A DNA stretch of 52,100 bases. Origin: Clostridia bacterium. GTDB lineage: Bacteria; Bacillota; Clostridia; Oscillospirales; CAG-272. Below the pieces are notes generated by a model, which was not told the DNA's origin, searched no databases, and worked only from the letters and a program-made list of their open reading frames with translations. Below, one piece after another: positions 1,422-28,509 of this stretch. The stretch's first letter is position 1, and each line of letters opens with the position of its first letter. The stretch lies in NCBI GenBank assembly GCA_017387685.1, contig JAFOEU010000054.1, positions 1 through 52,100 on the forward strand, in the 5' to 3' direction. The position numbers were made by a program, and so were the translations under genes.

Positions 1422-1450
1422 ATTATATCATAAATTATGTGATTTGTAAA
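1422..1450 (-). promoter_or_regulatory. sigma-A-type promoter for the coiled-coil gene
   Basis: On the minus strand, -35 TTTACA at 1450-1445 and -10 TATAAT at 1427-1422 are separated by 17 bases. The -10 lies about 30 bases upstream of the start codon at 1392. Confidence 0.7.
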
Positions 1451-1458
1451 TAAGTAAC

Positions 1459-1495
1459 AAAAACGATCCCCACCAAAAGGTGAGGATCGCTTTTA
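1459..1495 (-). terminator. rho-independent terminator of the acyl-CoA ligase unit
   Basis: A stem CGATCC(C)CACC with an AAAA loop and GGTGAGGATCG (one mismatch) is followed on the minus strand by a T-rich run. It lies between the ligase stop codon and the next promoter. Confidence 0.65.
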
Positions 1496-1499
1496 TTTA

Positions 1500-1614
1500 A
1501 CCCGCCTGCGGGGCGCCGCCCGTTTGAAGCACGGAGAGAGTTCCGACCTCTGCGGAGCGCGACGTAAGAAACTTTTTGAAAAAAGTTTCTTAAGGATCTT
1601 CAAAAACTTTAAGC
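1500..1614 (-). repeat. partial copy of the modular hairpin element
   Basis: In minus orientation it starts with a GAAGATCCTTAAG-type module around the nested palindrome AACTTTTTTCAAAAAGTTT, then small GC hairpins and the phrase GTGCTTCAAA followed by another GC-rich hairpin. The order matches the fuller copies near 3633, 18911, 40847 and 47836, but the tail is shorter. Confidence 0.55.
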
Positions 1615-1618: not shown

Positions 1619-3256
1619 TTAGTTCTTGATCTGTTGGAGCACGAGGCTTTCGCCGGCGTACTGCTTACGAAGCACGGGCTTTTCGATCTTACCGGTGGGA
1701 TTACGAGGTACTTTTGCAAACACTACCTTGCGCGGACGTTTGTAGCGGGGCAGCTCAAGGCAGAAGCTTGCAACTTCTTCTTCGGTCATTTCCTCGCCGT
1801 CCTTAAGCTCGATGACGGCAAGTGTGATCTCGCCGAGTCGCTTTTCGGGGATGCCGATAACGGCAACGTCCTTGATCTTTATGTTCGAGCGGAGGAAGTC
1901 CTCGATCTGTACGGGGTAGATGTTCTCGCCGCCCGAGATGATGACGTCCTTTTTTCTGTCAACGAGCCAGATGAAGCCGTCCTCGTCCTCGCGTGCCATA
2001 TCGCCCGTGTAGAGCCAACCGTCCTCGCCGAGGATCTCGTCGGTCGCTTTGGGGTCCTTGTAGTAGCACTTCATAACGCCGGGGCCCTTGACCGCAAGCT
2101 CGCCGACCTCGCCCGCAAGCACGGTGCGGCGGCGTTCGTCTACGATCCTGGTCTCCCAGCCGTAGCCCGCCTTGCCGATCGCGCCGACCTTGTGAATGTT
2201 GTCCACGCCAAGGTGCACGCAGCCGGGGCCGATCGACTCGGAAAGTCCGTAGTTAGTGTCGTATTTATGGTTCGGGAAGATGTCCTTCCAACGCTTGATA
2301 AGGCTCGGTGGTACGGGCTGTGCTCCGATGTGCATCAGCCGCCACTGATCGAGGGAGTATTCGTCAAGATTGATCTCACCGCGGTCGATCGAGTCGAGAA
2401 TGTCCTGCGCCCACGGAACGAGCAGCCACACGATCGTGCAATGCTCGTCCGATGCGGCTTTGATGATCTGCTTGGGTGCAGCACCCTTTAGAAGGACTGC
2501 CTTTGAGCCCGCAAGGAAGGAGCCGAACCAGTGCATCTTTGCGCCGGTGTGGTAGAGGGGCGGGATGCATAGGAAGCAGTCTTCGCGTGTCTGCGAGTGG
2601 TGCGCCTGCTCGACCTCGCAAGCGTGCATGAGTGCCTTGTGATCGTGAAGGATAGCCTTGGGGAAGCCCGTTGTGCCGCTTGAGAAGTAGATGGCGGCGT
2701 AATCGCGGTCGCAAAGCGGAACTGCGGGAGGCTTCGACGAGCAGAAGGTCACGAGTCTGTCGTAGCTCTCGGCAAAAGAGGGACAGTCGCGTCCGACGTA
2801 GTTCCACATCTTGATCTGCGGCAGAGAGGAGCAGATCTCCTCAACTCGTCCCGTAAATTCGGGACCGAAAACGAGAAATTCAGCGTCAGATTTTTCAAGG
2901 CAGTATTTGATCTCGTCCGCGGTGTAGCGGAAATTAAGAGGAACGGCAACACCGCCCGCCTTGAGGATGCCGAAGTAGACGGGGAGCCATTCGAGGCAGT
3001 TCATAAGAAGTATGGCAACCTTCTGACCCTTGGTGATTCCGCGAGTCATCAGGAGGTTGGCGAAACGGTTTGCGCGCTGATCGAAGTCGCTCCAGGTCAT
3101 CTCACGGCGGTAGCTTTCGCCGCCGGTGGACTGCATCAGCGAATATTCCTTCCAAGTGAGCTTTTCTGTGGGTTCAAGAGCCGCGTTGATCTCAACGAGC
3201 GCGACGTCATTGGGGTAAAAAGCCGCGTTGCGGACTAAAATTTCTGTAATAGGCAT
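1619..3256 (-). CDS. acyl-CoA synthetase / acyl-CoA ligase (AMP-forming)
   Basis: This 545-residue ANL-superfamily enzyme should activate a carboxylic acid with ATP to an acyl-adenylate and pass it to CoA. Visible signatures are the AMP-binding loop SGTTGFPK at residues 193-200, the mid-domain YGLSES segment, a WLYTGD/GFIWLVDRKKD hinge region at about 410-435, GGENIYP, and the C-terminal NPTGKIEK motif with the catalytic lysine near 525. The open frame extends 43 codons further upstream, but only the ATG at 3256 has a good ribosome binding site (AAGGAG), and the upstream stretch overlaps the T-box terminator. The gene follows a T-box leader, unusual for this family, whose specifier reads as Leu (UUA) or Ile (AUU). 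That suggests a link to branched-chain amino acid catabolism, for example activation of a branched short-chain acid. The substrate cannot be read from sequence. Confidence 0.9.
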   Translation of the reverse strand: MPITEILVRNAAFYPNDVALVEINAALEPTEKLTWKEYSLMQSTGGESYRREMTWSDFDQRANRFANLLMTRGITKGQKVAILLMNCLEWLPVYFGILKAGGVAVPLNFRYTADEIKYCLEKSDAEFLVFGPEFTGRVEEICSSLPQIKMWNYVGRDCPSFAESYDRLVTFCSSKPPAVPLCDRDYAAIYFSSGTTGFPKAILHDHKALMHACEVEQAHHSQTREDCFLCIPPLYHTGAKMHWFGSFLAGSKAVLLKGAAPKQIIKAASDEHCTIVWLLVPWAQDILDSIDRGEINLDEYSLDQWRLMHIGAQPVPPSLIKRWKDIFPNHKYDTNYGLSESIGPGCVHLGVDNIHKVGAIGKAGYGWETRIVDERRRTVLAGEVGELAVKGPGVMKCYYKDPKATDEILGEDGWLYTGDMAREDEDGFIWLVDRKKDVIISGGENIYPVQIEDFLRSNIKIKDVAVIGIPEKRLGEITLAVIELKDGEEMTEEEVASFCLELPRYKRPRKVVFAKVPRNPTGKIEKPVLRKQYAGESLVLQQIKN

Positions 3257-3284
3257 GGTAATTCTCCTTGATTTTCGGAAGCAA

Positions 3285-3562
3285 AAGAAAAACGCCTCTG
3301 CAACCGTGATGGATGCAAAGACGACTGATATAGCCGTGTTACCACTTTGCTTTACTCGCTCCTTGCGAAGTCGAGCCTTACGCACATCTAATCAATGTGT
3401 CGCCCGATGACGGGGGCAAACCGATGCACCTTTGGAAATAATCGTTCTGTGCACAGCTCCCGAAAGGTAATTCGGAATCCACCACCCTCTGTCTTGCACC
3501 CTCCGACAGCTCTCTGCACGGTGAACCGTGAATTCTTACTGAACTTTCGTTCATAGCTTTAT
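3285..3562 (-). promoter_or_regulatory. T-box leader (tRNA-sensing riboswitch)
   Basis: Read on the minus strand. Stem I has a base helix CGAAAG (3549-3544) with CUUUCG (3466-3461) and an upper helix GAAUUCAC with GUGGAUUC. Between them the 5' side carries AGUA and the 3' side CGAAUUAC, the expected loop-E/specifier arrangement. GAA just before the codon favours UUA (Leu, 3470-3468); the frame shifted by one base gives AUU (Ile) followed by A. An AGAGAG segment typical of stem I is present. The T-box sequence is AAAGTGGTAACACGG at 3348-3334. A GU-containing terminator hairpin (about 3323-3293) ends in TTTTT. The acyl-CoA ligase follows directly. Confidence 0.85.
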
Positions 3563-3568
3563 GCGGAT

Positions 3569-3597
3569 ATTTTACTACAAAATAAAGCATTTGTCAA
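3569..3597 (-). promoter_or_regulatory. promoter of the T-box leader
   Basis: On the minus strand, TTGACA at 3597-3592 and TAAAAT at 3574-3569 are separated by 17 bases. This places the transcription start near 3562, just before stem I of the leader. Confidence 0.8.
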
Positions 3598-3632
3598 GAG
3601 CTTTTTGAATATTTGTTCAAAAAAGCGAGCAG

Positions 3633-3812
3633 GTTTTTGAAGATTCTTAAGGAACTTTTTTCAAAAAGTTCCTTAAGCAGAGCACGAGGCAGAGCCTCGT
3701 ACTAATGCGCGAGCTTCAGCTCGCGCCACCGCGCTTCAAAAATACGAAGCTCTGCTTCGGATTTTTGGACGGAGTCAATACTTTCGCAAGGGCGAAAGTG
3801 TTGCGCTCCGTC
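3633..3812 (+). repeat. modular covarying hairpin element, copy 1
   Basis: Order: GAAGATTCTTAAG with the nested palindrome around CTTTTTTCAAAAAG; hairpin ACGAGGC/GCCTCGT; hairpin GCGAGCT/AGCTCGC; the phrase CCGCGCTTCAAAAA with hairpin GAAGC/GCTTC and ATTTTTGGAC; and a long terminal hairpin GACGGAG/CTCCGTC enclosing AATACTTTCGC/GCGAAAGTGTT. The other copies keep the same order and pairing with different stem bases. Confidence 0.8.
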
Positions 3813-3834
3813 GCCCTGCGCCCGAAGGGCGCAC

Positions 3835-3920
3835 GATGTTGCACTTCGTGCAAATGATGTTGCCTTCGGCAAATGATGTTGTGCTTCGCACAAACGATGT
3901 TGCACCCTGCGGGCGCAAAT
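3835..3920 (+). repeat. array of the constant word GATGTT with variable mini-hairpins
   Basis: Four tandem units each begin (A)ATGATGTT or CGATGTT and continue with a small hairpin of different stem: GCAC-ttc-GTGC, GCC-ttc-GGC, GTGC-ttc-GCAC, and a longer GC-rich one. The word and the TTC loop stay constant while the stem changes with pairing retained. Confidence 0.75.
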
Positions 3921-4056
3921 TAAGGTTAAAATCCGCCGCGGCGGATTTTTTCCATCTTAATTATATTTCGCCTTTGGTTTTCTTTGGGCACAAATTTCTT
4001 CGCAAGGGCGCTGACTGCCCTCCCCAACCCCTCCCGCGCGCGGGAGGGGGGCAAGA
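3921..4056 (+). repeat. AAGGT-hairpin module plus GC-rich palindrome module
   Basis: AAGGTTAAAATCCGCC pairs with GGCGGATTTT, then comes an ATTATATTTCGCC(TTTGG) segment and GGGCACAAA..CTTCGC. The end is GCGCTGACTGCCCTCC and the palindrome CCCCTCCCGCGCGCGGGAGGGG. The same series recurs at 4671-4797, 19104-19236 and 19369-19500. Confidence 0.75.
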
Positions 4057-4071
4057 TTTCAACTGTATATG

Positions 4072-4578
4072 TTATTTTAATTCGCCTCGGATTTGTTTTC
4101 CGGATTTGATTTTTCTCTTTCTCGCAAGTGTTGAGCCGAGGATGGATACGCCGGAGTAGAGAAGCATACATAAAATCGCGCTGACTATGACACCGGTGAA
4201 GACAGGTTTATATTCTTTATTTTCGCCAAACAGCGTTGCAAGATGAAAACCGTATGCTCCAACAAGATAATTGCAACCCGTTATTATCCACACAATACCA
4301 TAAATCGCGGATGACAGGGCTGCACGGACAGCAGATTCTTTAATTTCGGTTTTTTCGGCATCTTCATTGCGGCTGTAGTAAATCAGCAAAAACAGCAAGG
4401 CACCGAGCAAACCAAATACAGTCATTATTATATCTTCAAGATGCTCTTTGGTTGCCATATCGTGGTAAATACCACGAAAAATATAAAGTGGAATGAAAGA
4501 TACCAAAAATCCGATCCACGATGCGCCCCACATAATAACCGCACCGACAAATGAAGATTTGACAGTTTCTTTTTTCAT
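4072..4578 (-). CDS. four-helix membrane protein, unknown function
   Basis: A 168-residue integral membrane protein. Hydrophobic segments lie at about residues 10-35, 50-68, 88-112 and 125-148, separated by charged loops (a KEHLEDI stretch and RNEDAEKTEIKE). The C-terminus is basic (RKRKIKSGK). The start has an AAGGAGG site eight bases upstream, so it is very probably a real gene. I recognise no family. It stands alone between repeat elements, with no clear partner. Confidence 0.75.
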   Translation of the reverse strand: MKKETVKSSFVGAVIMWGASWIGFLVSFIPLYIFRGIYHDMATKEHLEDIIMTVFGLLGALLFLLIYYSRNEDAEKTEIKESAVRAALSSAIYGIVWIITGCNYLVGAYGFHLATLFGENKEYKPVFTGVIVSAILCMLLYSGVSILGSTLARKRKIKSGKQIRGELK

Positions 4579-4670
4579 TACGATGTCCTCCTTAGGAAGT
4601 AGTCTTTATAATATAAACGCAAAAAAACAAAAAATTTTTCTCAAAATACGTTTGTTTACAATAATTTTTT

Positions 4671-4797
4671 GGTAAAAATCCGCCTTACGTATTGTTTCAT
4701 TTAATTATATTTCGCCTTGGGGGGGTGAGTGCGGAAGATTTCGCGCGGGCGCTGACTGCCCTCCCCAACCCCTCCCGCGCGCGGGAGGGGAGTAAGA
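4671..4797 (+). repeat. degenerate AAGGT-hairpin plus GC palindrome module
   Basis: GGTAAAAATCCGCC is followed by a decayed second arm, then AATTATATTTCGCC, GGGCGCTGACTGCCCTCC and CCCCTCCCGCGCGCGGGAGGGG. This is the same module series as at 3921-4056, but the first hairpin has lost its pairing arm. Confidence 0.7.
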
Positions 4798-4887
4798 TAG
4801 CGCAAGTTAGATCGTTCAGCTTTCTGAACATTGATTGAGGCACACGGTCTATAGCGCGGCGCAAAGTATTCGTATGGGCGGCAATAG

Positions 4888-6444
4888 TTATTTGACAAGG
4901 GTTTCAAAAGACAAACCGTATTTCGCGGCGATCCCCGCGGCATAGCTTTTTCCCTCGGGTTTACCGCGCGTGATCTTGTAGGTGCGGCGTTTCCCCTCCT
5001 CAATGCCGGCGTTCAGAAAGTCAAATCCGTCGCATTCGCCGTCTGACTTTGCCTCGTCGATGCGGCGGCCAAGCTGGTGAAAATGTGTGCCGAAGATGGC
5101 GTGTGCGCCGTAGCTTCTGATCGCGCGAAGTATCTCAAAGGCAAGTCCGCAGCCCTCCTCCGAGTCTGTCGAGGAAAAGGTTTCGTCAAAGAGGCAGAGG
5201 CTGTGCGTGTTGATCGTGGCGAAGATCTCTTTGATTCGGGCACATTCTTCCTCAAGCCGACCCATATTTTCCTTGGTTGAATATTTGGGAAAATGAACGT
5301 AGATGCGGTCGACGGGACTTATATCAATACTTTTCGCGGGAATGAGCATTCCGAGCTGTGCGAGTATCTGCGCCATACCGACCGAAACGAGAAATACCGT
5401 CTTGCCGCCGTTGTTGGGGCCGGTGAGAATGTAGATCTGACCTTTTTCGTCAAATTCGATGTCGTTTGAAACGATCGAATTGATAGTTCCCGCCTCGCTC
5501 ATTCTGATGGCAAGCGCGGGATTGTAGAGCTGTTTTGCGCGGAAAATGCGTTCTGCCTTGGCGTGGTATTTGGGGATGCACAGCGGAACGCCTGATTCGA
5601 CCAGCTTTTTGTGAATTTTGGTGACAACGAGAATAAATTGAAGATCGGGGAGGAGATCAAGCAGAAACGCGAGATTCTCGGCGATGTATTTCGTGAATTC
5701 GCGCGGCCAGTTCTTCACGGCACGGACAAATATTTTATCGACCGAGCGGAGAATTGAATCCTGCAGAAGCTCAAACTCGTCGTGCTTGAGAGATTTGTCT
5801 ACCGCAATGATCGGTTCAATGGCTTGCAAACCGTTCGGAGCAAAATCCATTCGCAAAATTTTGTCAACAAGCTTGCCCGATTCGATATATTGATCGTTGA
5901 CGGAAATAATGCCCATCTCGACGGGCGAGAGCTTGGCGTCAAAATTGAAGCCGACAGAAATGCTCTTGATGTGCGTGATCTTTTCGATGAGCTTGCGCGT
6001 GCCTTGTTTCAGATCGTGATATTCGCGGCTCGTTGCAATGCCGTGAATGCGATCGAAAAGCTGTGAAAACTCCTCGGATGCGAAATGCTCTGCTTTGGGC
6101 AGCGAGGTGTAATAGCTTTCGGCTTCGTCGATGATCTCAAAATAGAGTTCGAGCTGCTTTGCGCTGAAGATCGAGCGTTCCCTATCGCCGATTTCGGTTT
6201 CACTTCGGAGCACGTCCGAGATTGCCGAAAGCTTTTGACTGATGCTGACGAGCAGCTCGTAGAGTCCACGCACGTTCAGCGCGTCGCCAAAAACGATGCT
6301 CCGCCTTTTCAGTACGTCTATATCATCGCTGAAATAATCGGCAATGTTGATCTTGGAATTATAAAGCAGATCATCCGCTCCGAGGCTTCTGAGGACTTCG
6401 ACGTCGCAGATCGGTAAATATTTTTTCTCAAAGAAAGTATTCAT
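4888..6444 (-). CDS. MutS-family ATPase lacking mismatch-recognition domains
   Basis: A 518-residue protein with the MutS lever/clamp helices (about residues 60-330) and the C-terminal ABC-type ATPase. Walker A is GPNNGGKT at 342-349, Walker B LCLFDET at 416-422, followed by FSSTDSEEG and the switch segment FGTHFHQLG. The N-terminal mismatch-binding and connector domains of classical MutS are absent, so it is not the canonical repair MutS and is probably a DNA-structure-binding or recombination-linked MutS-like protein. The ATG at 6444 overlaps the stop codon of the membrane-protein gene upstream (TGATG), implying translational coupling. The longer frame reaching 6576 would run into that gene and has no matching start signal. 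Confidence 0.88.
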   Translation of the reverse strand: MNTFFEKKYLPICDVEVLRSLGADDLLYNSKINIADYFSDDIDVLKRRSIVFGDALNVRGLYELLVSISQKLSAISDVLRSETEIGDRERSIFSAKQLELYFEIIDEAESYYTSLPKAEHFASEEFSQLFDRIHGIATSREYHDLKQGTRKLIEKITHIKSISVGFNFDAKLSPVEMGIISVNDQYIESGKLVDKILRMDFAPNGLQAIEPIIAVDKSLKHDEFELLQDSILRSVDKIFVRAVKNWPREFTKYIAENLAFLLDLLPDLQFILVVTKIHKKLVESGVPLCIPKYHAKAERIFRAKQLYNPALAIRMSEAGTINSIVSNDIEFDEKGQIYILTGPNNGGKTVFLVSVGMAQILAQLGMLIPAKSIDISPVDRIYVHFPKYSTKENMGRLEEECARIKEIFATINTHSLCLFDETFSSTDSEEGCGLAFEILRAIRSYGAHAIFGTHFHQLGRRIDEAKSDGECDGFDFLNAGIEEGKRRTYKITRGKPEGKSYAAGIAAKYGLSFETLVK

Positions 6445-6809
6445 CAGAAAAACCTCGCTTTCAAGTAGATTGCCGCGACAAGTGCCGCCAAGTGGATGAA
6501 AATGGGCCAAAAGAGGGAATAGTACCGCCGCCAGACGCGGCAGTATTGGCGGAAGAGCAGAAACAGAAGCATCCATACCAGTCCGGCAATTTGCAGAAAG
6601 ATTTCAAGGGAGGCAAGCACCGCGAGAGTCTGCAGAACCAGTATCATTAATCCCCAACTGAAAAGAATGACGCGCGGGATAGTAATATGCTCGATGTTTT
6701 GATCTGCTACGACCAAGTTCCATTTATCGGTGTATTTTTTAAATATTTTGCCATGTTCCTGATTGAGAGATTTTTTTAATAGGTGTAGGTTCAGCTCAAT
6801 TTTAGCCAT
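6444..6809 (-). CDS. small membrane protein coupled to the MutS-like ATPase
   Basis: A 121-residue protein with a basic amphipathic N-terminus (residues 1-45) and two to three membrane segments (about 47-70, 72-88 and 98-118). The start has a GGGAGG site. Its stop codon shares a base with the start of the MutS-like gene, so the two are co-translated. I recognise no family. The coupling suggests it anchors or partners the ATPase at the membrane, which is inference. Confidence 0.75.
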   Translation of the reverse strand: MAKIELNLHLLKKSLNQEHGKIFKKYTDKWNLVVADQNIEHITIPRVILFSWGLMILVLQTLAVLASLEIFLQIAGLVWMLLFLLFRQYCRVWRRYYSLFWPIFIHLAALVAAIYLKARFF

Positions 6810-7057
6810 ATTAACCTCCCGAGATTACAGATTTCCCATTTTTCTTTCAGCGCATATTATCCAATTTATTATATCATATTTTAGGCAAAAAACGAAATCT
6901 GGGATAATTGATATACTTTTTGGGATAATTAGTTTGTTTTCTTTTTGTTTTCTATTCCTCAATAATAAAAAGTGCGCCTCATTGTACCAAAAACACGGTG
7001 GTCGTTCTTACAAAGCAGGGGTGAAGGGGCAAAGCCCTTACACCCCCGTGAAATGTA

Positions 7058-7543
7058 TTAAGAAACCAACTGCGCTAATCCAAATCCGATAAGGAAGCAG
7101 ATCGCATATGCGCCGAGCTGGCACAGCCAGAATATATAGCGTTTGGAGCGTTCCCAAAATAGATCAAGCAGAATAGAGATACTCATAATGCTGATGAGGA
7201 TTATCGGCAAACTGATAGCCATCCATGCGCCTGACAGATCCTGCGCAACCAAAGCCGTAAGAATCCAGATGAAATAGATTGGGAATAGTGAAAGATGCGT
7301 GAAGATAAGTCTTCTCTTCATATTAAGAGTACCCGCTCGCTCGCATTTGATCAGTTTGATCCGTCCGTAACGGTTGGCTGTCATAGCTGAACTGTAAGAT
7401 ATGAAGAATACGATGATTGTGGCAGCAGTAGAAAAATTGCACAGCGAGATATAAAACATGAAAAGTATGCCGTAAAAAACGAATACGGTCAGATTCTTTT
7501 TCATATATGCTTTGATTTTTTCAATAACAACTTCCTTATTCAT
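7058..7543 (-). CDS. integral membrane protein, unknown function
   Basis: A 161-residue protein with a short cytoplasmic basic N-terminus and about four hydrophobic segments (residues 17-36, 38-56, 85-108 and 112-160, the last probably two helices). It lies 16 bases downstream of the stop codon of the giant sigma-factor gene on the same strand. It is probably co-transcribed with it and may be its membrane target or partner. No recognisable motif. Confidence 0.7.
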   Translation of the reverse strand: MNKEVVIEKIKAYMKKNLTVFVFYGILFMFYISLCNFSTAATIIVFFISYSSAMTANRYGRIKLIKCERAGTLNMKRRLIFTHLSLFPIYFIWILTALVAQDLSGAWMAISLPIILISIMSISILLDLFWERSKRYIFWLCQLGAYAICFLIGFGLAQLVS

Positions 7544-7559
7544 ATCTATAAACTCTTTT

Positions 7560-10157
7560 TTACTCGATATGTGCCGCTTTAGCTATCTCGTATGCCTCTC
7601 GCTTCATCCTTCCCGTTGCACAGCGGAAGATGTTGATCTCGCCGCTATTGTGGGAATAGGTGTATTCGACTGAGGCGGAATAGTCGGGGTGCATATTGAC
7701 AGCTTCGTAACGGCGGAAAAGTCCGTCGCCGACGGGGAAATATTCATCCTCGGAGCCTTCTCCTCGATATTCGGTCAGTTCCCAAATTGACGTGCAAGTC
7801 TTTTTGTGGTGAAGAGCCGTCATCTTGACGATTCCGATGCCGGGCGCGAACCAATATGTTTTGTGCCCGCCGCGGTAGTAGTATCCTTGCGGGAATTTTG
7901 AGGCGTTGACGAAGACCTTGCGACAATTCTTGAATGTTCCGAGATTGGTTTCGCAATCCTCGACACTTACCTCAATGCGGTAATCGTGACCTTGGAAACG
8001 TCCCCACTCGATCTTCCCTTTTTCATAATAACCGTCTACCCATTTGTCACTCCAAAGCATGCCGGCGGTTTCATTGAGTATCGAATAGATCGTGTTATAC
8101 ATAACCGGGTAACTTTCTTTGGTAAGCTCAAATGGCAGATAAGAAGAGAATTCGTATTCGTGCTGCTTGTTCGGCATTCGGGTGAAGTATGTTTTGCCGT
8201 CACTCACATCAACAAGCTCGGCTTCAAAGCAGTCGCGAATGCTTTGCTCTTTGTAATCGGGATTTGTGTCGCTATTTTCGCAGATGTTGAGAGCGACCTT
8301 TTCTGCAATTTCGGCAAAAACACGATCTGCCTTGGTTTCTGAGCAAGCATAGGCGCGCCTAAAAGCATCTGCCGACTTACCGGAAGGAATGGCACGGTGT
8401 TTTTTGGCAATATAGAGGGAGTGAACCGCCTCGAGAATATTTCCGCGGAAACTTGCGCGGTTGTAAAGAAGCTCGGAACGGCAATAATTGTGCGCGATAA
8501 CCGCGGAAGTGCCGTCAAAGGAGGTGACACGGTAGAGTGATTCGACCACGGCGGTGAAGTCTCCGTTTCCGATGCAAGTGTATTTCCATTCGTTGCCTGC
8601 GGTGAAAGGCAGAAGTCCTGATCCTTCTGCTTTATATTCCGAAAGCTTCCATTCATGTGTGTGACCGTCTTTTGTCAATTTCTGGCTGACGATGCCCACA
8701 CCCTCGCAAAATGCGGTTTCCGTTATGCGGATAGGTCCTTCAAGGCGGAACACTCGACAGTTTTCAAAAAGTCCTGCGGGAGTGCTGACGTTTTCGGTTT
8801 CCGAAACGCACGAGAGGATATATCTTCCGTCGCTTGAGGTGATTGAATCGCCGAGGTGAATGCTTTCGTCAAGTATCATCGAATCGCATTGAGATGCATA
8901 GAAGAACAGTGCGCTTTCGAGTCCGGCGAGCTCTCTTCCGAATCCGGGTTGGAGCCAGAAGTAGAGCTTGCCGTCAACGTATCGGTATTCCTCGCCTGTC
9001 ACCTGAATATTCATTTCGGGGGTGTATCCGTGGCGGTTTATGAGGTCGATCACGGCACTTGACAGCGCAAAGTATGGCTCGGAGGGCGGCAGAATACTGA
9101 GCACCTCTCTGAAATCAGCAAGACTATCTTCGCTTGCTTTTTTATCACGCAAAAGCTTTAGTCTGCCGAGCCAGAAAAGCAAGTAAGCTTCCACGTATCG
9201 GAACTTTTTTTCTCGGCAAAACGGAAGGAGGTTTTCTTCAATATCCTTGATTTGATTTACAATTCCGCTGATTCGTGAGTTTTCAATGAAAAACACCGTA
9301 GAAAGCACTTCTTCGTTTCGTCCGTTAATTGCATTTTCTTTAATTTCGGCTAATATTTCTTTGCTTTTTTGACCGTGATGCCACCAATATCCTTGCATAA
9401 GAACGTCTGCAAGTGCATGGCTTTTTTCTGCCGAATCGGAAAGATCGGTGACAATGTTCAGCATAGTTTCATAATACTCGGGAAACCACGAGTGATCGTT
9501 CTGGCGGGTAAGAAATCTGAATTCTTTGACCTTTCGCATAACGCGGGCAACGATATCTTCGTGTTCGATATAATCCTTTTCCATAATTCCGTATTCCTTT
9601 CTCAGTTGACGTCTTCCCTCGCAGAGGCGCCATTTGACCGTTCCCGCCGGCAGGGAAAGTCGCAGGGCAATCTCGGCGATCGAAAGTCCTTCGAAGTAAT
9701 GCAGATCGATCGTCTCGCGGATCTTTTCCGAGAGAGTATCGAGTGCTTCGTGTAGCCGCGAATCACGCTCTGCCTCGCCGATAGAGACAGAGGAAAGAAG
9801 TTCAAGGAGTCCGCTTTCGTCGCTGCCGGTCAGGTCGACCTCTTCAAGGAGAGTCAGGCTGATATCTGCGGCGGCGTTTTGGTACTTGCGGACGAGATTG
9901 CGGGCGTGATTCTTGGCAATGGAACACACCCACGAGCCGAATTTGTCGCGGTCGGAGAGGCTGTCAAGATTAAGCCACGCCGAAACGAAGGCATCCTGCG
10001 CCGCATCCTCTGCGGAAAAGGAGTTGCCCGTAGTTTTGTAGGCGGTGCCCTTGACGTTCTTTTCGTGGCGTTTGACAAGCTCCTCGAAGGCGCGCTCATC
10101 CCCGAGAAGGGTCATATCGACCAGAATCGAATCCCTGTGTTCCTTGTAGTTTTTCAT
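7560..10157 (-). CDS. ECF sigma factor with a ~670-residue C-terminal extension
   Basis: An 865-residue protein. Residues about 15-90 are sigma-70 region 2 (DERAFEELVKRHE, AEDAAQDAFVSAW, FGSWVCSIAKNHARN) and about 135-190 are region 4 (ALDTLSEKIRETIDLHYFEGLSIAEIA, helix-turn-helix TVKWRL). The other ~670 residues are not sigma. After a helical stretch (about 200-370), two related beta-rich blocks follow. Each has a (G)xFxNCRxF strand and a later GxGIVxxK strand ending in WxLxEYxxEGS, at about residues 475-545 and 750-825. No membrane segment is seen. C-terminal extensions in ECF factors often control activity in place of a separate anti-sigma factor, and I infer that here. The ATG at 10157 is preferred over the in-frame ATG at 10163 because the GAGGT site lies directly against the latter but seven bases from the former. 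Confidence 0.88.
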   Translation of the reverse strand: MKNYKEHRDSILVDMTLLGDERAFEELVKRHEKNVKGTAYKTTGNSFSAEDAAQDAFVSAWLNLDSLSDRDKFGSWVCSIAKNHARNLVRKYQNAAADISLTLLEEVDLTGSDESGLLELLSSVSIGEAERDSRLHEALDTLSEKIRETIDLHYFEGLSIAEIALRLSLPAGTVKWRLCEGRRQLRKEYGIMEKDYIEHEDIVARVMRKVKEFRFLTRQNDHSWFPEYYETMLNIVTDLSDSAEKSHALADVLMQGYWWHHGQKSKEILAEIKENAINGRNEEVLSTVFFIENSRISGIVNQIKDIEENLLPFCREKKFRYVEAYLLFWLGRLKLLRDKKASEDSLADFREVLSILPPSEPYFALSSAVIDLINRHGYTPEMNIQVTGEEYRYVDGKLYFWLQPGFGRELAGLESALFFYASQCDSMILDESIHLGDSITSSDGRYILSCVSETENVSTPAGLFENCRVFRLEGPIRITETAFCEGVGIVSQKLTKDGHTHEWKLSEYKAEGSGLLPFTAGNEWKYTCIGNGDFTAVVESLYRVTSFDGTSAVIAHNYCRSELLYNRASFRGNILEAVHSLYIAKKHRAIPSGKSADAFRRAYACSETKADRVFAEIAEKVALNICENSDTNPDYKEQSIRDCFEAELVDVSDGKTYFTRMPNKQHEYEFSSYLPFELTKESYPVMYNTIYSILNETAGMLWSDKWVDGYYEKGKIEWGRFQGHDYRIEVSVEDCETNLGTFKNCRKVFVNASKFPQGYYYRGGHKTYWFAPGIGIVKMTALHHKKTCTSIWELTEYRGEGSEDEYFPVGDGLFRRYEAVNMHPDYSASVEYTYSHNSGEINIFRCATGRMKREAYEIAKAAHIE

Positions 10158-10302: not shown

Positions 10303-10319
10303 ATTATTATTAAAAAATA

Positions 10320-10630
10320 GCGGAAAAGTTTTCGTCCACCTTTTTTAGAAAAGGATGTTTGCCTTCGGCAAACGGCAGATTCTTAAGGCGGAGCCGTCCC
10401 TCTTTTTACATTTTATATTATAGCATATTTTATATCATTTGTCGATTATATTATAAATATTATAAACTAAAAAGATCTCCCTCGAGGGGAGATCTTTTTA
10501 GTTCCGAACCGCCTGCGGGGCGCAGTCGGTTCGAAGCACAAGGGGGATTTCGACCGCTGCGGCGGTCGACTTAAGGCGCTGCCTTAAGAAACCGCAAACT
10601 TTTGAAAAAGTTTGATCAAAACTTTTGTGC
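10320..10630. repeat. intergenic hairpin modules and bidirectional terminator
   Basis: No gene seen. Contents are GAAAAGTTTTCGTCCACC and a TTTGCC-ttc-GGCAAA mini-hairpin; a terminator at 10469-10500; and, in minus orientation, a partial element with AAACTTTTTCAAAAGTTT, CTTAAGGC/GCCTTAAG, CGACCGC/GCGGTCG and CGAACCG/CGGTTCG stems. Confidence 0.6.
10469..10500. terminator. bidirectional terminator hairpin
   Basis: AAAAAGATCTCCC, a TCGA loop and GGGGAGATCTTTTT form a strong stem flanked by A and T runs. On the minus strand it can end the DUF4091 gene transcript. Confidence 0.7.
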
Positions 10631-12325: not shown

Positions 12326-12979
12326 TTATTTAAGAATTTCAAGTAGTTCACAGGGTTTGTCGATGATCATTTTTGCCCCCGCCGCCTCGAGCTGTTCGCG
12401 CGTGCGGTAGCCCCAGGTTACGGCGATGCAGTTCGCTCCCGCGTTGTTTGCAACGTTGATATCGGGCTCGCTGTCGCCGATCATGATAGTATTTTCTGCG
12501 GTAAAGCCGAGATTTGATGCAATATCGAGGAAGGACGTGGGATCGGGCTTGGTGGGAATGCCCTCGATCATACCGCGAATGTCGGCGAATGTACCCTTTC
12601 CGAAGAGCTTTTCCACAATGTCAACGGTATAGCGGTGCGGCTTGTTTGAAAGTGACGCGACGGCATATCCGCGCGCCTTCAGCTCGGCGATCGCGTCGGC
12701 AAGACCTGCATATGGCTCGTCGATATTGAGATAATTCTTCGCATATTCCTCCTTGTAACGCGCAAGGAAGGGACGGTAGATCTCCGCGTTGTTATAATGC
12801 TCTGCGGGGATGCAACGACGGCACATCAGCTCCATACCGTTGCCGATCGCGCGGCAGATGTGCGCATCGTCGACGAGGGGATATGAGAATTCGGAGAGCA
12901 CCGAATTCATCGATTCGGTGAGAGTGGGAAGGGTATCGCCAAGCGTACCGTCAAGGTCGAATATGAGTAGCTTTTTCAA
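12326..12979 (-). CDS. HAD-family phosphatase (phosphoglycolate-phosphatase type), paralog 1
   Basis: A 217-residue haloacid-dehalogenase phosphatase. Motif I is FDLDGTLGDT at the N-terminus with nucleophile and acid/base aspartates. Motif II is SLSNKPHR, motif III the lysine of TKPDPTS and motif IV IGDSEPDIN. The insert after motif I matches the alpha-helical cap of the PGP/beta-phosphoglucomutase group. The frame is open 34 codons further up, but the likely start is the TTG at 12979, seven bases after AAGGAAC. This gives the same N-terminus (MKKLLIFDLDG) as the two neighbouring paralogs. It probably dephosphorylates a small phosphate ester. It ends 12 bases before the DUF4091 gene, so sugar-phosphate substrates are plausible. 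Confidence 0.88.
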   Translation of the reverse strand: MKKLLIFDLDGTLGDTLPTLTESMNSVLSEFSYPLVDDAHICRAIGNGMELMCRRCIPAEHYNNAEIYRPFLARYKEEYAKNYLNIDEPYAGLADAIAELKARGYAVASLSNKPHRYTVDIVEKLFGKGTFADIRGMIEGIPTKPDPTSFLDIASNLGFTAENTIMIGDSEPDINVANNAGANCIAVTWGYRTREQLEAAGAKMIIDKPCELLEILK

Positions 12980-12993
12980 TTTTTTGTTCCTTT

Positions 12994-13644
12994 TTATATA
13001 ATAGTGAGTATGTCGATAGGCTTTTCGGCGAAAAGGGTCGCGCCCTTTTCGGCGAGCTTTTCGCGTGTGGAGTAACCCCAAAGTGCACCGATGTAGTTGG
13101 CGTTTGCAGATACTGCTGAAGCTGCATCTGCGGGCAGGTCGCCGATCATATATGTGTCGGCAGGAGCTATTCCGAGCATTTTGCAGATATAAAGAATGCC
13201 CGTGGGGGCGGGTTTGGGTGCGATTTCGGGTGTGCCGCCAAGGATAAAATCAAAATATCCCTCGCCGAAAGCCTTATCGATTATGGGCTTTGTGAATCGG
13301 TGTGGCTTGTTTGAGAATACCGCGATCTTGTGTCCGCGCACTTTGAGCTCCGCAAGAGTCTCGCGGATGCCGTCGAAGAGACGGTCAGCGGCTTTCATAT
13401 AATAATTTTCGTAATTGCTCCAGAAATAGATGCCGAAATCGTCGGGGACTCGGTCGAGATACGCGACAGGCGCGTGTCCGCCGTCCTTTGTTGAGCGGAA
13501 TCCGTACTCTTTAACGAGCGCGCGGATATGCTCTTCCGTTTCGGGTAAGCCGCATTCGGTCAGTGCGTCGGCAAAAATGAAGTTAAGAAGCGGCTGGGTG
13601 TCGGCAAGAGTGCCGTCAAGGTCAAAAATGATCAGTTTTTTCAT
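12994..13644 (-). CDS. HAD-family phosphatase, paralog 2
   Basis: A 216-residue paralog of its two neighbours with all four HAD motifs: FDLDGTLADT, VFSNKPHRF, the lysine of APKPAPTG and IGDLPAD. The C-terminal WGYSTREKLAEKGATLFAEKP segment aligns with the neighbours. Its ATG overlaps the stop codon of paralog 3 by four bases (ATGA), so it is translationally coupled. Cap residues differ from paralogs 1 and 3, suggesting different substrates. No genomic evidence identifies them. Confidence 0.88.
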   Translation of the reverse strand: MKKLIIFDLDGTLADTQPLLNFIFADALTECGLPETEEHIRALVKEYGFRSTKDGGHAPVAYLDRVPDDFGIYFWSNYENYYMKAADRLFDGIRETLAELKVRGHKIAVFSNKPHRFTKPIIDKAFGEGYFDFILGGTPEIAPKPAPTGILYICKMLGIAPADTYMIGDLPADAASAVSANANYIGALWGYSTREKLAEKGATLFAEKPIDILTII

Positions 13645-14303
13645 TTAAATATATCCAACAGGTCGCACGGCTTTTTGGCAAAGACGGTTGCTCCGAGTGC
13701 GAGAAATTTTTTCTTTTTGCCGTAGCCCCAATCGGCTATGACGTGGTTTATGCCCGCGTTTACCGAAACCTTGTAGTCGGCGGGGAGGTCGCCGATCATC
13801 CACGCGTTCTCTTTTTCAATACCGAGCGCGGCAAGCATATCGAGCAGCGAGGTCGGATCGGGCTTTTTCGGGCGAATTTCATCCCAACCGTAAACGTAAT
13901 CAAAGGTGTCTGCACCGAAGGCTGTCGAGATTATCGGCTGTACGAATCTGTTTTTCTTGTTGGAGAGCACGCCGAGGAGATATCCGCGGCGCTTAAGCTC
14001 GCAAATCGTTTCGGGAATTCCCTCAAAGACTCGGTCAACGCTCATCATATGGTACTTTTGGTAATTATCCCAAAAATCAACGGCGTATTTGTTGCGATCA
14101 ACTAAGGGGAGAAATTCGGAGGGAATCGGCGAATTCAGCTCGATGATCTCTTTTCCGTTCTCTTCCATAGAGCGCACGACGTCTTCTACGGAGACTACGT
14201 CCACCCCCGAGTCGCGCAAGGTTGCGTATATCATTGTGTCGAGCACAAGCTGCGTGTCGCAAAGTGTTCCGTCAAGATCGAAGATAAGAAGTTTTTTTGA
14301 CAT
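13641..14303 (-). CDS. HAD-family phosphatase, paralog 3
   Basis: A 220-residue HAD phosphatase with FDLDGTLCDT, VLSNKKNRF, RPKKPDPTS and IGDLPADYK motifs. It differs from the other two in a longer cap and in WGYGKKKKF instead of the WGY(R/S)TRE signature. It is first of the three tandem genes, 17 bases after a membrane-protein gene. Three in-line copies point to local duplication followed by divergence of the cap. Confidence 0.88.
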   Translation of the reverse strand: MSKKLLIFDLDGTLCDTQLVLDTMIYATLRDSGVDVVSVEDVVRSMEENGKEIIELNSPIPSEFLPLVDRNKYAVDFWDNYQKYHMMSVDRVFEGIPETICELKRRGYLLGVLSNKKNRFVQPIISTAFGADTFDYVYGWDEIRPKKPDPTSLLDMLAALGIEKENAWMIGDLPADYKVSVNAGINHVIADWGYGKKKKFLALGATVFAKKPCDLLDIFK

Positions 14304-18777: not shown

Positions 18778-18778
18778 G

Positions 18779-18846
18779 AGTGATAATCTGCCTTCGGCAG
18801 AGTGATAATCTCGCTTCGCGAGAGTGATAATTTGCCTTCGGCAAAA
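18779..18846 (+). repeat. AGTGATAAT mini-hairpin array
   Basis: Three tandem units of AGTGATAAT each carry a different 13-base hairpin with a TTC loop: CTGCC/GGCAG, CTCGC/GCGAG and TTGCC/GGCAA. The word and loop are constant; the stems change in both arms. Confidence 0.8.
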
Positions 18847-18910
18847 TGAAGGTGAATTTCCTCGCGGTGCTCGGAAATTTTCGATTATTAAAAATAACAG
18901 CAGCGAGAAA
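18847..18910 (+). repeat. AAGGTGAATTT hairpin module
   Basis: GAAGGTGAATTTCC with a complementary GGAAATTTTC arm, then AAAATAACAGCAGCGAGAAAG, which leads into the next module. The same module follows the heptad arrays at 41069, 44593, 49430 and 51801. Confidence 0.7.
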
Positions 18911-19089
18911 GTTTTTGAAGATTCTTAAGGAACTTTTTTTAAAAAGTTCCTTAAGCAGAGCTCGAGACGGAGTCTCGAACCAATGCGAGACCTTAAGGTC
19001 TCGCTACCCCGCTTCAAAAATACGAAGCTTGCTTCGGATTTTTGGACTTAATAACCACTTCCCGATTGTAGGGAAGTAGTTGTTAAGTC
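18911..19089 (+). repeat. modular covarying hairpin element, copy 2
   Basis: Same module order as copy 1 with different stems: TCGAGAC/GTCTCGA; the palindrome GCGAGACCTT/AAGGTCTCGC; the CCCGCTTCAAAAA phrase with GAAGC/GCTTC; and the terminal hairpin GACTTAA/TTAAGTC enclosing ACTTCCC/GGGAAGT. Pairing is kept at positions where the bases differ from copy 1. Confidence 0.8.
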
Positions 19090-19103
19090 ATTCCTTTGCC
19101 CAT

Positions 19104-19285
19104 AGAAAAGGTAAAAATCCGCCTTGCGGATTTTCTCAATTATATTATATTTCGCCCTTGGTTTCGTTTGGGCGCAAACTCCTTCGTTCAGGCGCTGACT
19201 ACCTTCCCCAACCCCTTCCGCAAGCGGACGGGGCTTTTGGGGAGTGCGAACTTATTATTTTGTGTTCTGAATACCGCTTTTTTGG
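19104..19285 (+). repeat. AAGGT-hairpin plus palindrome module
   Basis: AAAAGGTAAAAATCCGCC with GGCGGATTTT-like pairing, ATTATATTTCGCC, TTTGGGCGCAAA, GGCGCTGACTACC and the GC palindrome region CCCCTTCCGCAAGCGGACGGGGC. It ends in about 50 bases of AT-rich linker. Confidence 0.65.
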
Positions 19286-19364: not shown

Positions 19365-19500
19365 AACGTTAAGGAAAAAATCCGCCGCGGCGGATTTTTT
19401 CGATCTTATTAAATTTTGCACTTGATTTCGTTTTGGCACGAACTCCTTCGCGTGGGTGCTGACTACCCACCCCAACCCCTCCCGCAAGCGGGAGGGGATT
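19365..19500 (+). repeat. AAGG-hairpin plus GC palindrome module
   Basis: GTTAAGGAAAAAATCCGCC/GGCGGATTTTTT, AAATTTTGCACTTGATTTCG, GGTGCTGACTACCCACC and CCCCTCCCGCAAGCGGGAGGGG. It is a third full copy of the series at 3921-4056. Confidence 0.75.
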
Positions 19501-20063
19501 TGTTCGCAATGTCACTAATTTGCAATAAAATGCGCCGGAAATCGTCAAATTATCCCCAAAAACTATCGAATTATCCCAAATTTCGTTTTATGCTGAAAAA
19601 ATATGGTATAATATTGATAGAGAAAAGTGCTGAAGGTGGATTTCGGCAAAGGAGTCTGATTTTATAAAAAGTGAAGGCTCTGTTCTATCAAATGACTGAT
19701 AATTTTGTTTTTTTAGGGGAACCCCCACTTGTGTGTTCCCCTCTTTGCAAAGCTGCGCTTTGCAAATTCACCCCTCGTGGCGCTTATAGGGCTTGGAGTG
19801 TTTCGACCTCTGAGGAGGTCGACCAACGCCACGCGGCGTTGGATCCGCGGTCGCTTTTTGAAAAAGCGACGCAAAAACTTTCAAATATCAGTCATTTTGC
19901 GTGACATAGCCAAAATGAAAATCGGCTCTTGCATCCGGTTCAAAATAGCTTCAACCGGATGTGCAGAATGATGAAATTAAAATTTTTCTCAAAAAACTGT
20001 TACCGATGAGAAAAAAACGCAACTTATTTATTAAGGCGCATTATAACGAAAGGAGGCGTGGAT
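19501..20063. repeat. serial hairpins, no gene seen
   Basis: A chain of unrelated stems: AGGGGAAC/GTTCCCCT (19717-19743), TTTGCAAAGC/GCTTTGCAAA (about 19746-19768), CGACCTC/GAGGTCG, CCAACGCC/GGCGTTGG, GTCGCTTTTT/AAAAAGCGAC and CATCCGGTT/AACCGGATG (about 19934-19964). Segment 19849-19909 recurs at 23029-23088. A TATAAT at 19607 has no convincing -35. Confidence 0.55.
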
Positions 20064-24832: not shown

Positions 24833-24863
24833 GAAAATTTATATTTTACTTGACAAATTTGTG
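24819..24863. promoter_or_regulatory. inverted repeat spanning divergent -35 boxes
   Basis: CACAAATTTGTCAAG (24819-24833) and its exact complement CTTGACAAATTTGTG (24849-24863). Each arm contains a -35 TTGACA and the 10-bp palindrome ACAAATTTGT. It looks like a pair of operators for one dimeric regulator controlling both directions. Confidence 0.6.
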
Positions 24864-24878
24864 CAAAAGTGGTATCAT
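24850..24878 (+). promoter_or_regulatory. promoter of surface protein gene 1
   Basis: TTGACA at 24850-24855, 17 bases, TATCAT at 24873-24878. The segment from about 24866 through the -10 into the leader is nearly identical to that of the paralog at 26763. Confidence 0.8.
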
Positions 24879-24928
24879 TATTATGTATCAATTCGGCTCT
24901 GTCCGAAAATTTAGAAAGGACGAAAATT

Positions 24929-26653
24929 ATGAAAAGAATTTTCAGCGCGCTTCTCTCGCTTGTTATGATTCTCTCGCTCGTTGCGGCAATGGGAATCAAC
25001 ACTTCCGCCAAGGAAGGCGACGTTCTTCGTAAGATCAATTTCAAGAACGACGACAAGTATTCGTTCAACATGTTTGCCACCAACGGCAAGGCAGACGGTG
25101 TTACAGCAGAGGTTTCCGAAGACGGCTCTGCGGCAACTGTTACCGTTATCACTAAGAGCAAGAGATACTTCTACGGTGACATTATCGACGGTCTCAAGCT
25201 CGGCGAAGGCAAGAAGTACACTGTTGAGGTTCTTGCTGACAACTCCGTTGCAGGTAAGGATGCAATGCAGAACTTCGGCGTATACATCAACGGTAACAAG
25301 GACGTTATTGAGGGCGACTGGGCAACCATTACCCCCAACAACTCTAAGTACACCGATACTATGAACGCTTTCAGAGGCTACTACGGAACTCCCGAGGGCT
25401 GGAACGGCACTCCCAAGAACACCCTTTCCCGCGGCGCGGGCAGCAAGGACTACGGTCTTTATGTAAGTGACGGCTCCAACTACGTTGGCGACGTTTACAC
25501 TCCTGATGCAGAAGGCTTCTGCAAGGTTTCCATCGAAGTAGACGGCTACATTTACCGTGTATTCATCAACGGCGAGTTCTTTGACGAGGGCTATATCCCC
25601 TTCGCAAACAACTATGATGATCTCGCTCTCGTTTTCTACGTTTACAACGCAGGCTCTGTAACCTTCAAGGATGCTGTTGTATACGAGGGTAACATCTACT
25701 CCGCAAAGGGCTTCACTTATCCCGCACTCCGCGAGGGCGCAGTTAAGGAAGATTGGTCCGATGCTATGATGCTCAACGCAAAGGAACTCACTATGGACGC
25801 TTACGCAAAGGCAGGCCTTGGCGCTAAGCTTACCGATATCCTCTTCAAGAACGGCACCGATTACGCTCCTAAGATGTTCAATCTTACCGGTACCGATCCC
25901 ATCATCACCGTCTCCGACGACGGTAAGCAGATCGACTTTGATAAGCCCACCGATGCAGGTATGAAGGACGCAGGCCAGGGTGCTACCTGGTGGGGCGGCG
26001 CTATCGGTTCTCTCGAGTACACCGCTGACACCGTTTACACCTTCACATACAAGGTGAAGACCAACGATCTCCGCGGCGGTATCTTCTTCAACCTCGACGA
26101 GACCAATATGAAGTATAACTGGGGACAGCTCTATAACTTCTACGGCAATCTTGACGGCAGCGAGAACTCTGATATGGTTGTCTGCATCAGCGGCACCAAG
26201 CTCAAGGGTCACGAGACCGTAAAGACCACCTCTTATACCAAGTTCGCTGCTCTCGAGAAGAACATCGCGTTCGACGCAGAGGGATATGCTGATATGGCTG
26301 TAACCGTTGACGGTTATTCCTGGAGCCTCTACTACAAGGATGCTGCAGGCGAGTGGGTACTCTTCGAGACCTACCACGGCACTGCTGCCGAGTTCGCAGG
26401 CGCACCTCAGGTTGCATGCGGCGTATATCTCTACCACGATATGTGCACCCTCGGTATCAAGGATGCTGCTCTTTACAAGGGCACCCTTACCGACGTTGCT
26501 AACTACGTTCCTCCCGTAGAGACCGAGCCCGCTCCCGAGACCACCGAGCCCGAAACTCCTCCTACCACCGGTGACTCCACTCTCGTCTTCGCAGTTATCG
26601 CAGTTATTGCTGTTGCAGGCGTTGCAGTTGTTGCAAAGAGAAGAGAAGACTGA
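24929..26653 (+). CDS. secreted surface protein with two beta-sandwich modules and sortase-type tail
   Basis: A 574-residue protein. Residues 1-27 are a signal peptide (MKRIFSALLSLVMILSLVAA, cleavage near NTSA-KEG). Two related modules of about 240 residues follow (about 28-260 and 290-525). Each starts with a DxLxKxxFK-like strand and ends in an IKDAAxYxG-like strand, suggesting concanavalin-like carbohydrate-binding sandwiches. The C-terminus has a Pro/Thr/Glu linker, the motif PPTTGDS, a hydrophobic helix and KRRED, the architecture of a sortase-anchored protein, although PPTTG departs from LPXTG. Uniform codon choice suggests high expression. The frame extends 20 codons further up, but only the ATG at 24929 has a GAAAGGA site and fits a signal peptide. 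The ligand is unknown. Confidence 0.85.
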   Translation: MKRIFSALLSLVMILSLVAAMGINTSAKEGDVLRKINFKNDDKYSFNMFATNGKADGVTAEVSEDGSAATVTVITKSKRYFYGDIIDGLKLGEGKKYTVEVLADNSVAGKDAMQNFGVYINGNKDVIEGDWATITPNNSKYTDTMNAFRGYYGTPEGWNGTPKNTLSRGAGSKDYGLYVSDGSNYVGDVYTPDAEGFCKVSIEVDGYIYRVFINGEFFDEGYIPFANNYDDLALVFYVYNAGSVTFKDAVVYEGNIYSAKGFTYPALREGAVKEDWSDAMMLNAKELTMDAYAKAGLGAKLTDILFKNGTDYAPKMFNLTGTDPIITVSDDGKQIDFDKPTDAGMKDAGQGATWWGGAIGSLEYTADTVYTFTYKVKTNDLRGGIFFNLDETNMKYNWGQLYNFYGNLDGSENSDMVVCISGTKLKGHETVKTTSYTKFAALEKNIAFDAEGYADMAVTVDGYSWSLYYKDAAGEWVLFETYHGTAAEFAGAPQVACGVYLYHDMCTLGIKDAALYKGTLTDVANYVPPVETEPAPETTEPETPPTTGDSTLVFAVIAVIAVAGVAVVAKRRED

Positions 26654-26681
26654 TTCTTCAATCGTACAAATCGTAAATAAA

Positions 26682-26731
26682 TAAAAAACTCGGATATTTC
26701 AAGACGAAAGCTTTGAAATATCCGAGTTTTT
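26682..26731 (+). terminator. terminator of surface protein gene 1
   Basis: ACTCGGATATTTCAA pairs with TTGAAATATCCGAGT and is followed by TTTTT. Confidence 0.85.
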
Positions 26732-26762
26732 GCATTAATATTGTACAAAATTCGATTTTGTC

Positions 26763-26791
26763 TTGACAAATGTGCATAAAAGTGGTATCAT
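26763..26791 (+). promoter_or_regulatory. promoter of surface protein gene 2
   Basis: TTGACA at 26763-26768, 17 bases, TATCAT at 26786-26791. It shares the downstream leader ATTATGTATCAATTCGG with gene 1, so promoter and gene were duplicated together. The full palindrome ACAAATTTGT of gene 1 is altered here. Confidence 0.8.
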
Positions 26792-28487: not shown

Positions 28488-28509
28488 TTAAAGACTTAAT
28501 TCAATAATT

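Follow-up and report, generated by a model that had tools for sequence, protein, structure and literature searches.

Dispersed, hairpin-forming repeats have been described in several kinds of genome. In excerpts of the work on REPs and BIMEs with their RAYT transposases (PMC2817692, PMC3733652), these repeats are extragenic, palindromic, of high copy number, arranged in inverted pairs and located largely downstream of coding regions, and a REP is one palindrome of 20-40 bp. The relevant parts of PMC3049150 portray BOX, RUP and SPRITE of Streptococcus pneumoniae as dispersed repeats with extensive secondary structure, thought to be parasitic and slow to transpose, and limited to a few streptococci. 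The repetitive hairpin-forming elements of sponge mitochondria appear in PMC2800124 as scattered intergenic hairpins of divergent sequence and patchy distribution, while an excerpt of PMC8794818 attributes multi-base paired changes in stems to template switching.

The element reported here shares something with each of these systems. The stretch of DNA analysed, which we call the window, comprises 52,100 nucleotides, forming contig C47 in the 2.58-Mb draft genome (G000) of a Clostridia bacterium. This genome carries about 50-60 copies of a non-coding element of 150-190 nt (60 merged places, truncated copies counted, were hand-picked among the hits of searches with three window copies, antisense self-matches and some head-only hits being excluded). 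Its plan is a head hairpin, H1, followed by hairpins H2-H5 with constant phrases between them. From head to tail the order is a head beginning AAAG-TTTT, H1, H2, H3, a short unpaired phrase that mostly ends in GCTTC, H4, GGA, H5 and finally the tail, for example ACCCC or ATTCC. H1 differs between genomes, with few variants inside any one of them; in G000 it is either enclosed by CTTAAG or of the kind GTTTTGATC(R)AAC-TTTTTCAAAA-GTT(Y)GCGG. Two body types can be told apart, type A (copies at 3633, 18911 and 40841), with an H3 of GCG...CTTCA...CGC, and type B (1450, 10458 and 47836), in which H3 is TCGNNNNCCGCAGNNNNCGA followed by AAAC. Each of the two heads is found with each of the two bodies among the copies of G000, and a separate H2 is missing from type B copies with the CTTAAG head. 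The window contains the following features:

3633-3818, plus strand: type A element with H1-H5, the subject of this report (covariance model 144.3 bits at 3678-3818)
3646-3677, plus strand: H1 of this copy, CTTAAG-GAAC-(TTTTTTCAAAAA)-GTTC-CTTAAG (sequence and fold)
3685-3699, plus strand: H2 of this copy, CGAGGC-AGA-GCCTCG (sequence, fold and covariation test)
3707-3726, plus strand: H3 of this copy, GCGCGAGC-TTCA-GCTCGCGC (sequence, fold and covariation test)
3738-3766, plus strand: H4 of this copy, with an A.G mismatch at 3744/3760 (sequence, fold and mismatch count)
3768-3812, plus strand: H5 of this copy, GACGGAG...CTCCGTC (sequence)
1450-1610, minus strand: type B element with degenerate H5 (68.2 bits at 1450-1562)
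10315-10400, plus strand: truncated element, head with some of the CTTAAG hairpin, in convergent orientation to the copy at 10458-10624 (limits by eye)
10458-10624, minus strand: type B element, same site in G012, two fused heads instead in G009 (106.9 bits)
18911-19095, plus strand: type A element, with type B at the same gene end in G004, G009 and G012 by one-sided synteny (145.8 bits)
19780-19885, minus strand: divergent 5' domain alone, with its own H1 stem, H2 and H3 (limits by eye)
40786-40835, plus strand: truncated head, convergent with the copy at 40841-41020 (limits by eye)
40841-41020, minus strand: type A element, site occupied in G009 and empty in G004 (155.5 bits)
44095-44179, plus strand: truncated type B element with head, H2 and H3 (92.6 bits at 44105-44179)
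44480-44535, minus strand: truncated head at the opposite end of the 44095 site (limits by eye)
47836-47996, plus strand: type B element, site also occupied in G012, lacking it in G004 and with different sequence in G009 (121.1 bits at 47882-47996)

A first-pass annotation of the window had named four copies, those at 3633, 18911, 40841 and 47836, and all of them are present; the terminal-helix arms that it quoted are exact. The partial copies that it reported are also real, those at 1450-1610 and 10458-10624 being type B elements and that at 44095-44179 a truncated one. Its statement that CTTAAG flanks are common to all four copies needs correction for the copy at 40841, which has the other kind of head, GTTTTGATC..., instead.

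The annotation had known of no named family with this layout, and none was found in Rfam. Nothing in the whole window reached the gathering score in Rfam 15, and selected related loci gave sub-threshold matches only, at permissive thresholds. Near the 3633 element the best of these by E-value was Gut-1 at 3831-3905 (21.9 bits against a gathering score of 50), outside the element. At this site of weak similarity there are short tandem hairpins (3812-3915, and again at 18778-18849) with a constant phrase ATGATGTTG or GAGTGATAAT, whose stems vary yet pair around TTCG, which repeats the paired variation of the element on a smaller scale. Text searches of open-licence papers brought up no description of the element, and a search for four of its sequence strings found no match. 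Like REPs, the element has many extragenic copies, often in inverted pairs, but the unit is a fixed order of four or five different hairpins over 150-190 nt rather than one short palindrome, and several copy-rich genomes lack a Y1 match. BOX elements consist of boxA, boxB and boxC sequences, and we set them beside our element by published description only. BOX, RUP and SPRITE differ in their restriction, within the excerpted account, to a few streptococci, whereas the 5' domain described here occurs in several Clostridia families with stems differing between genomes. The sponge elements, likened by description only, belong to organelle genomes, and the template-switched stems, as excerpted, differ from ours, which have a conserved mismatch and variants common to several copies. 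The element works like the REP/BIME, BOX-type and organellar hairpin repeats but falls outside the definition of a REP, and we place it with the dispersed palindromic repeats, among which it would be new.

The annotation had also held that the stems differ with both arms changed together, and this covariation proved to lie far above controls in which columns were shuffled or partners slid. Among 25 type B copies, in a plain MAFFT alignment, 97.8% of cells were paired, compared with 80.1% after shuffling and 40-48% with slid partners; a double change occurred in 27 of 38 pairs (14.0 on average after shuffling), and 147 cells were doubly changed, as against 38.7 in shuffles and 15-20 with partners slid by 1-3 columns. 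None of 500 shuffles matched the values for paired cells, pair counts or double changes. In 18 type A copies (MAFFT), 99.2% of cells were paired (86.8% shuffled), 19 of 44 pairs had a double change (shuffled mean 13.5) and 101 cells were doubly changed (32.2 shuffled). The count of further pair types showed no excess over shuffles in type A (114 of 500), nor did two of the five measures in the class-wide alignment A5 (52 and 278 of 500). The structures tested were the RNAalifold consensus of these same MAFFT alignments, themselves not fitted to structure (for type A minus four long-range pairs), and this derivation by itself gives them an advantage over the slid versions.

Comparison of related genomes gave a similar picture. 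In 23 comparisons of the same type at the same site, hand-chosen by synteny, with some sharing one site and sites of differing type excluded, 132 of 175 changed pairs had changed on both sides and still paired; 719 pairs were equal, 28 had changed on one side to a wobble and 15 were broken. The copy at 47836 differs from its counterpart in G012 in H1, H3, H4 and H5, and 7 of its 7 changed model pairs were kept. The reasoning that pairing kept beyond what decay would leave points to selection on structure, or to a process that rewrites both arms, thus gains support in both halves: orthologous paired changes, the conserved mismatch in H4 and the wobble asymmetry of H4 and H5 argue for selection on one folded strand, while the near-independent assortment of variants and the type swaps at one site argue for exchange of whole hairpins. 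Nor are the copies unrelated terminators, since one covariance model per type finds them and their 5' domain recurs in other Clostridia families. Covariation alone, it should be stressed, is no proof of a host-functional RNA.

Four genomes (G000, G004, G009 and G012) are nearer each other than the rest of their genus; longer matches to the window have mostly 80-90% identity, some 68-78%, within this clade and mostly 64-81% in other genus members. At E<=0.001 the type B model matched 9 of 59 relatives, G000 included; the four clade genomes alone had 26 hits or more, and each of the five other matched relatives had 1-6; the other 9 genus members had 0-1 hits. Within the genus, the 5' domain (H1-H3) has 51 copies in G000, 66 in G009, 52 in G012, 26 in G004 and 2 in G002, and none in G008 and G010. 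Across the class, its model matched 11 of 291 genomes at E<=1e-6, G000 included. In other Clostridia families the domain is patchy, with 27-120 copies in six genomes. Individual counts are 68 in G336, 85 in G230, 105 in G211, 120 in G197, 27 in G057, 10 in G261 and 2 in G047, and no copies were found in G240 and G282, of the family of G336, or in G300 and G319, of the family of G197. The 21 genomes searched more fully comprised ten with 26-120 copies, five with 1-10 and six with none; these copy numbers may be low because the candidates scored were limited to 16 per genome class-wide and 150 in the fuller search. Named genomes carry the exact 31-nt head in at least 114 stretches and include Oscillospiraceae, Ruminococcus, Anaeromassilibacillus, Caccousia and a Defluviitaleaceae; the record of Anaeromassilibacillus sp. 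An200 contains a match to the head. In many of these stretches there is an H2 and an H3 of similar design, built from different stems. The class-wide set of 5' domains contained 51 distinct sequences with H3 recognised by pattern, out of 116 matches in 114 loci, and 50 were aligned. Fifteen stretches read in G197 run on into more variable hairpins, in which both arms have again changed. Several copies in this genome (L337-L351) also have an extra module, NNNAAAACAGTCC-GGTG-GGACTGTTTTNNN plus a GAGGCTCTGCAAGAGAGAGCCTC hairpin, with paired changes, and similar modules occur at Oscillospiraceae or Ruminococcus loci (L250, L260).

We consider it somewhat probable that the copies are mobile repeats, non-coding, non-autonomous and dependent on structure, between which whole hairpins are exchanged, movement being what we infer from their distribution. 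This reading draws on the dispersed, multi-copy state of the element, its patchy presence, the covariation, the differing occupancy of orthologous sites, the pairs of convergent copies and the near-independent assortment of variants. Each copy would be a chain of hairpin modules, with a head (H1) drawn from the few variants of its genome and then H2-H5, whose stems vary but remain paired. Machinery acting in trans would have moved the element, copies that fold badly would not have been propagated, and copies would recombine by swapping whole hairpins, so that both arms of a stem change at once. The strand that folds would be the one running from head to tail, as RNA or single-stranded DNA. A bolder form of this idea, for which our expectation is tentative and well below even, is that of a Clostridia-wide, protein-less selfish element that moves as one folded strand (RNA or single-stranded DNA), is recognised by its shape and not by the sequence of its stems, and evolves as copies trade whole hairpins, such that compensatory change would arise by recombination.

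The alternative that survives best, although we hold it to be unlikely, is that the copies serve the host as terminators or insulators at the 3' ends of genes, held in place by selection on RNA structure. Among 112 copies in the four-genome clade, the head lies towards a gene 3' end in the sense direction in 68 and towards a 5' end in 40, with four ambiguous as to side, according to a simple gene caller that misses some genes. Eighty-six of the 92 clade copies with both neighbours called are beside at least one gene 3' end and six are in divergent gaps, a rarity that leaves room for a terminator role or for a landing preference. In 24 of the 68 sense copies the model, which starts some 45-60 nt inside the element, begins within 75 nt of a called stop. 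H4 of the 3633 copy has a terminator-like score on both strands, 44 of the 83 inner arms of type B H5 begin with AAAA, giving an A-run/T-run hairpin, and element sites are kept across species. Against this, orientation is mixed: co-directional gaps hold 38 sense and 31 antisense copies in the clade and 16 of each class-wide, and such near-even orientation argues against a cis-acting RNA tied to the upstream gene. Of 59 class-wide copies, 14 are in divergent and 13 in convergent gaps (a cruder caller was used, and 33 of 116 matches that overlap a long ORF were excluded). Moreover, just 8 of the 83 right arms of type B H4 contain TTTT, no such T-run occurs in the 18 type A H5 stems, and the element is missing from close relatives. 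A terminator-like role of the element is possible. A weak terminator candidate was found on the minus strand at 47926-47938. Immediately beyond the element head there is often a hairpin GGTNAATTTYC...GRAAATTTTC, as at about 41025-41075 and similar spots beside other heads; it also occurs at the empty G004 site and is perhaps a native terminator that adjoins the element.

Which strand folds can be approached through mismatches and wobble pairs. At a 1x1 position of H4, 82 distinct copies have A.G in 37, G.A in 31, A.A in one and Watson-Crick pairs in 13 (these copies come from the 83 best of 126 rows). The mismatch type travels with the inner-hairpin variant, so that the flips are partly block replacement and the 68 A.G or G.A copies are not independent cases. 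In type B, with a conserved T.G column excluded, wobbles outnumber A.C mismatches by 29:1 in H4 and 28:5 in H5, with no such strand asymmetry in H3 (5 against 4). Counted by column the asymmetry is 16 versus 5 (p 0.027), and one column of 16 wobble cells supplies much of that in H4; the consensus structure behind these counts was predicted with wobble pairs permitted. In 26 distinct type A copies (from the 27 best of 118 rows), doubtful long-range pairs excluded, the ratio is 16:1 over all helices and 8:0 by column. The class-wide alignment has no wobble excess (H3 3:5; H2 11:11, where the alignment slipped). These counts are moderate evidence that the head-to-tail strand folds, at least in H4 and H5, as RNA or single-stranded DNA. 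They also bear on the proposal that template switching in replication rewrites one arm from the other under little or no selection, a mechanism published for RNA genes in the part of PMC8794818 that concerns us. Double changes do far exceed intermediates in same-site comparisons, as this proposal would have it, but template switching perfects stems, and the 1x1 position of H4 has remained A.G or G.A in the 68 non-independent copies just mentioned. Hairpin variants, too, are drawn from a small shared repertoire, and a one-strand wobble excess in H4 and H5 would not be expected from template switching alone. The last argument is weakened because template switching, by the same excerpt, also explains asymmetric pair frequencies (PMC8794818). 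As a full explanation we regard it as improbable, though it may contribute to stem change.

Hairpin variants assort almost independently of each other. The left arms of 83 type B rows fall into 17 variants for H3, 20 for H4-outer, 14 for H4-inner, 15 for H5-outer and 51 for H5-inner. Mutual information between modules exceeded that of shuffles by -0.12 to 0.21 of its maximum, the exception being the outer and inner parts of H5 (0.62). Several small excesses, to which orthologous copies in the set contribute, lie 3-5 standard deviations above shuffles. The two arms within a hairpin are therefore tightly coupled and adjacent hairpins almost unlinked. At one shared site G000 has type A and G009 type B, and head swaps were also seen. 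After the gene ending at 18738, which is the sole anchor, the element is of type A in G000 and of type B in G004, G009 and G012. These patterns fit exchange of hairpin blocks between copies, and recurrent substitution inside a restricted set of states may be an alternative to it. The type and head swaps and the low linkage between modules would also suit gene conversion, with no selection on structure, among old copies that no longer move. Conversion along random tracts, however, would often split hairpins and break their pairing, which is difficult to reconcile with the paired fraction in type B (97.8% of cells), and we regard this explanation as very unlikely.

The presence of the element varies between close relatives. 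G004 lacks it at three window sites, with intergenic lengths of 75, 64 and 12 nt. At the 10163 site G009 keeps just the two fused heads, which matches the expectation of deletion between inverted copies. Four window sites were compared on both sides (10163, 40775, 44081 and 47782), and at all of them the element is common to at least one other species, so that no recent movement is demonstrable there, which counts against the mobile reading. The 112 listed clade copies (from 244 model rows, each place taken once with the better model, weak antisense overlaps and duplicate locus L167 excluded) include 12 convergent tail-to-tail pairs with gaps of at most 80 nt, a finding favoured by the choice of many fetched loci for closely spaced copies. 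In convergent pairs the heads face outward like the terminal inverted repeats of a MITE, yet single copies occur. Target-site duplication gave no signal, with a mean longest flank repeat of 3.79 as compared with 3.71 in shuffles (34 of the 60 copies could be used, and their exact ends are uncertain).

Also counted against mobility is that no mobilising gene was found with the element, whether Y1, RVT_1 or among ORFs between copies. In 13 stretches, chosen because they separate convergent or adjacent copies, the ORFs look ordinary by eye, with no transposase recognised, and the 83-nt core of locus L183 (not a window copy) had no match in phage and plasmid records. RVT_1 reverse transcriptase was not found in the carriers G000, G004, G012, G197, G211, G066 and G261; it is present in the carriers G009, G057, G336, G215 and G230 and in the copy-free G010 and G300. 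Being absent from seven carriers, present in five and present without copies, it was rejected as the mobiliser, although a reverse transcriptase may act from outside the carrying genome. Y1 transposase had no match in eight carriers, G000, G012, G336, G057, G197, G211, G261 and G047 (51, 52, 68, 27, 120, 105, 10 and 2 copies, respectively; the assemblies of G000, G012 and G211 are incomplete). It matched in six carriers (one match each in G004 and G009; also G066, G215, G230 and G068), as well as in copy-free G300 and G240 and in G011, where the type B model had no hit. That the copies are REP/BIME-type repeats mobilised by a Y1 (RAYT, IS200/IS605-like) transposase is the least probable alternative, given that, although they are extragenic, palindromic and frequently in inverted pairs like the REPs of the excerpts cited (PMC2817692, PMC3733652), Y1 does not track their copies and is missing even from the copy-rich G197 and G211.

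If the preferred reading of structure-dependent mobile repeats is right, it adds a widespread structured repeat to the Clostridia, a class common in animal guts. Dozens of natural variants of one fold per genome would then provide a test bed for stem change with few visible intermediates. In addition, strong covariation could stem from module exchange among mobile copies, besides slow compensatory mutation.

Other repeats and rearrangements were observed in the window. A second dispersed repeat family is present at 3942-4053, 4740-4798, 19126-19237 and 19390-19501, with a GGTAAAAATCCGCC..GGCGGATTTTT hairpin followed by TTATATTTCGCC...GCGCTGACTGCCCTCCCCAACCCCTCCCG and a GC-rich hairpin; the copy at 4740-4798 is the latter part alone. 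Gene blocks at 1629-9009 run a-d-c-b-e in the window and a-b-c-d-e in contig C62 of G009, in one orientation throughout, and block b is unmatched in contig C72 of G012. One of the altered block junctions is occupied by the 3633 element. Adjacent repeated stretches at 24834-28489 (24834/26747, 84%; 26512/28346, 88%) point to paralogous genes in tandem whose upstream regions resemble each other, and three adjacent minus-strand ORFs with common repeated segments at 12326-14303 are tandem paralogues by their look.
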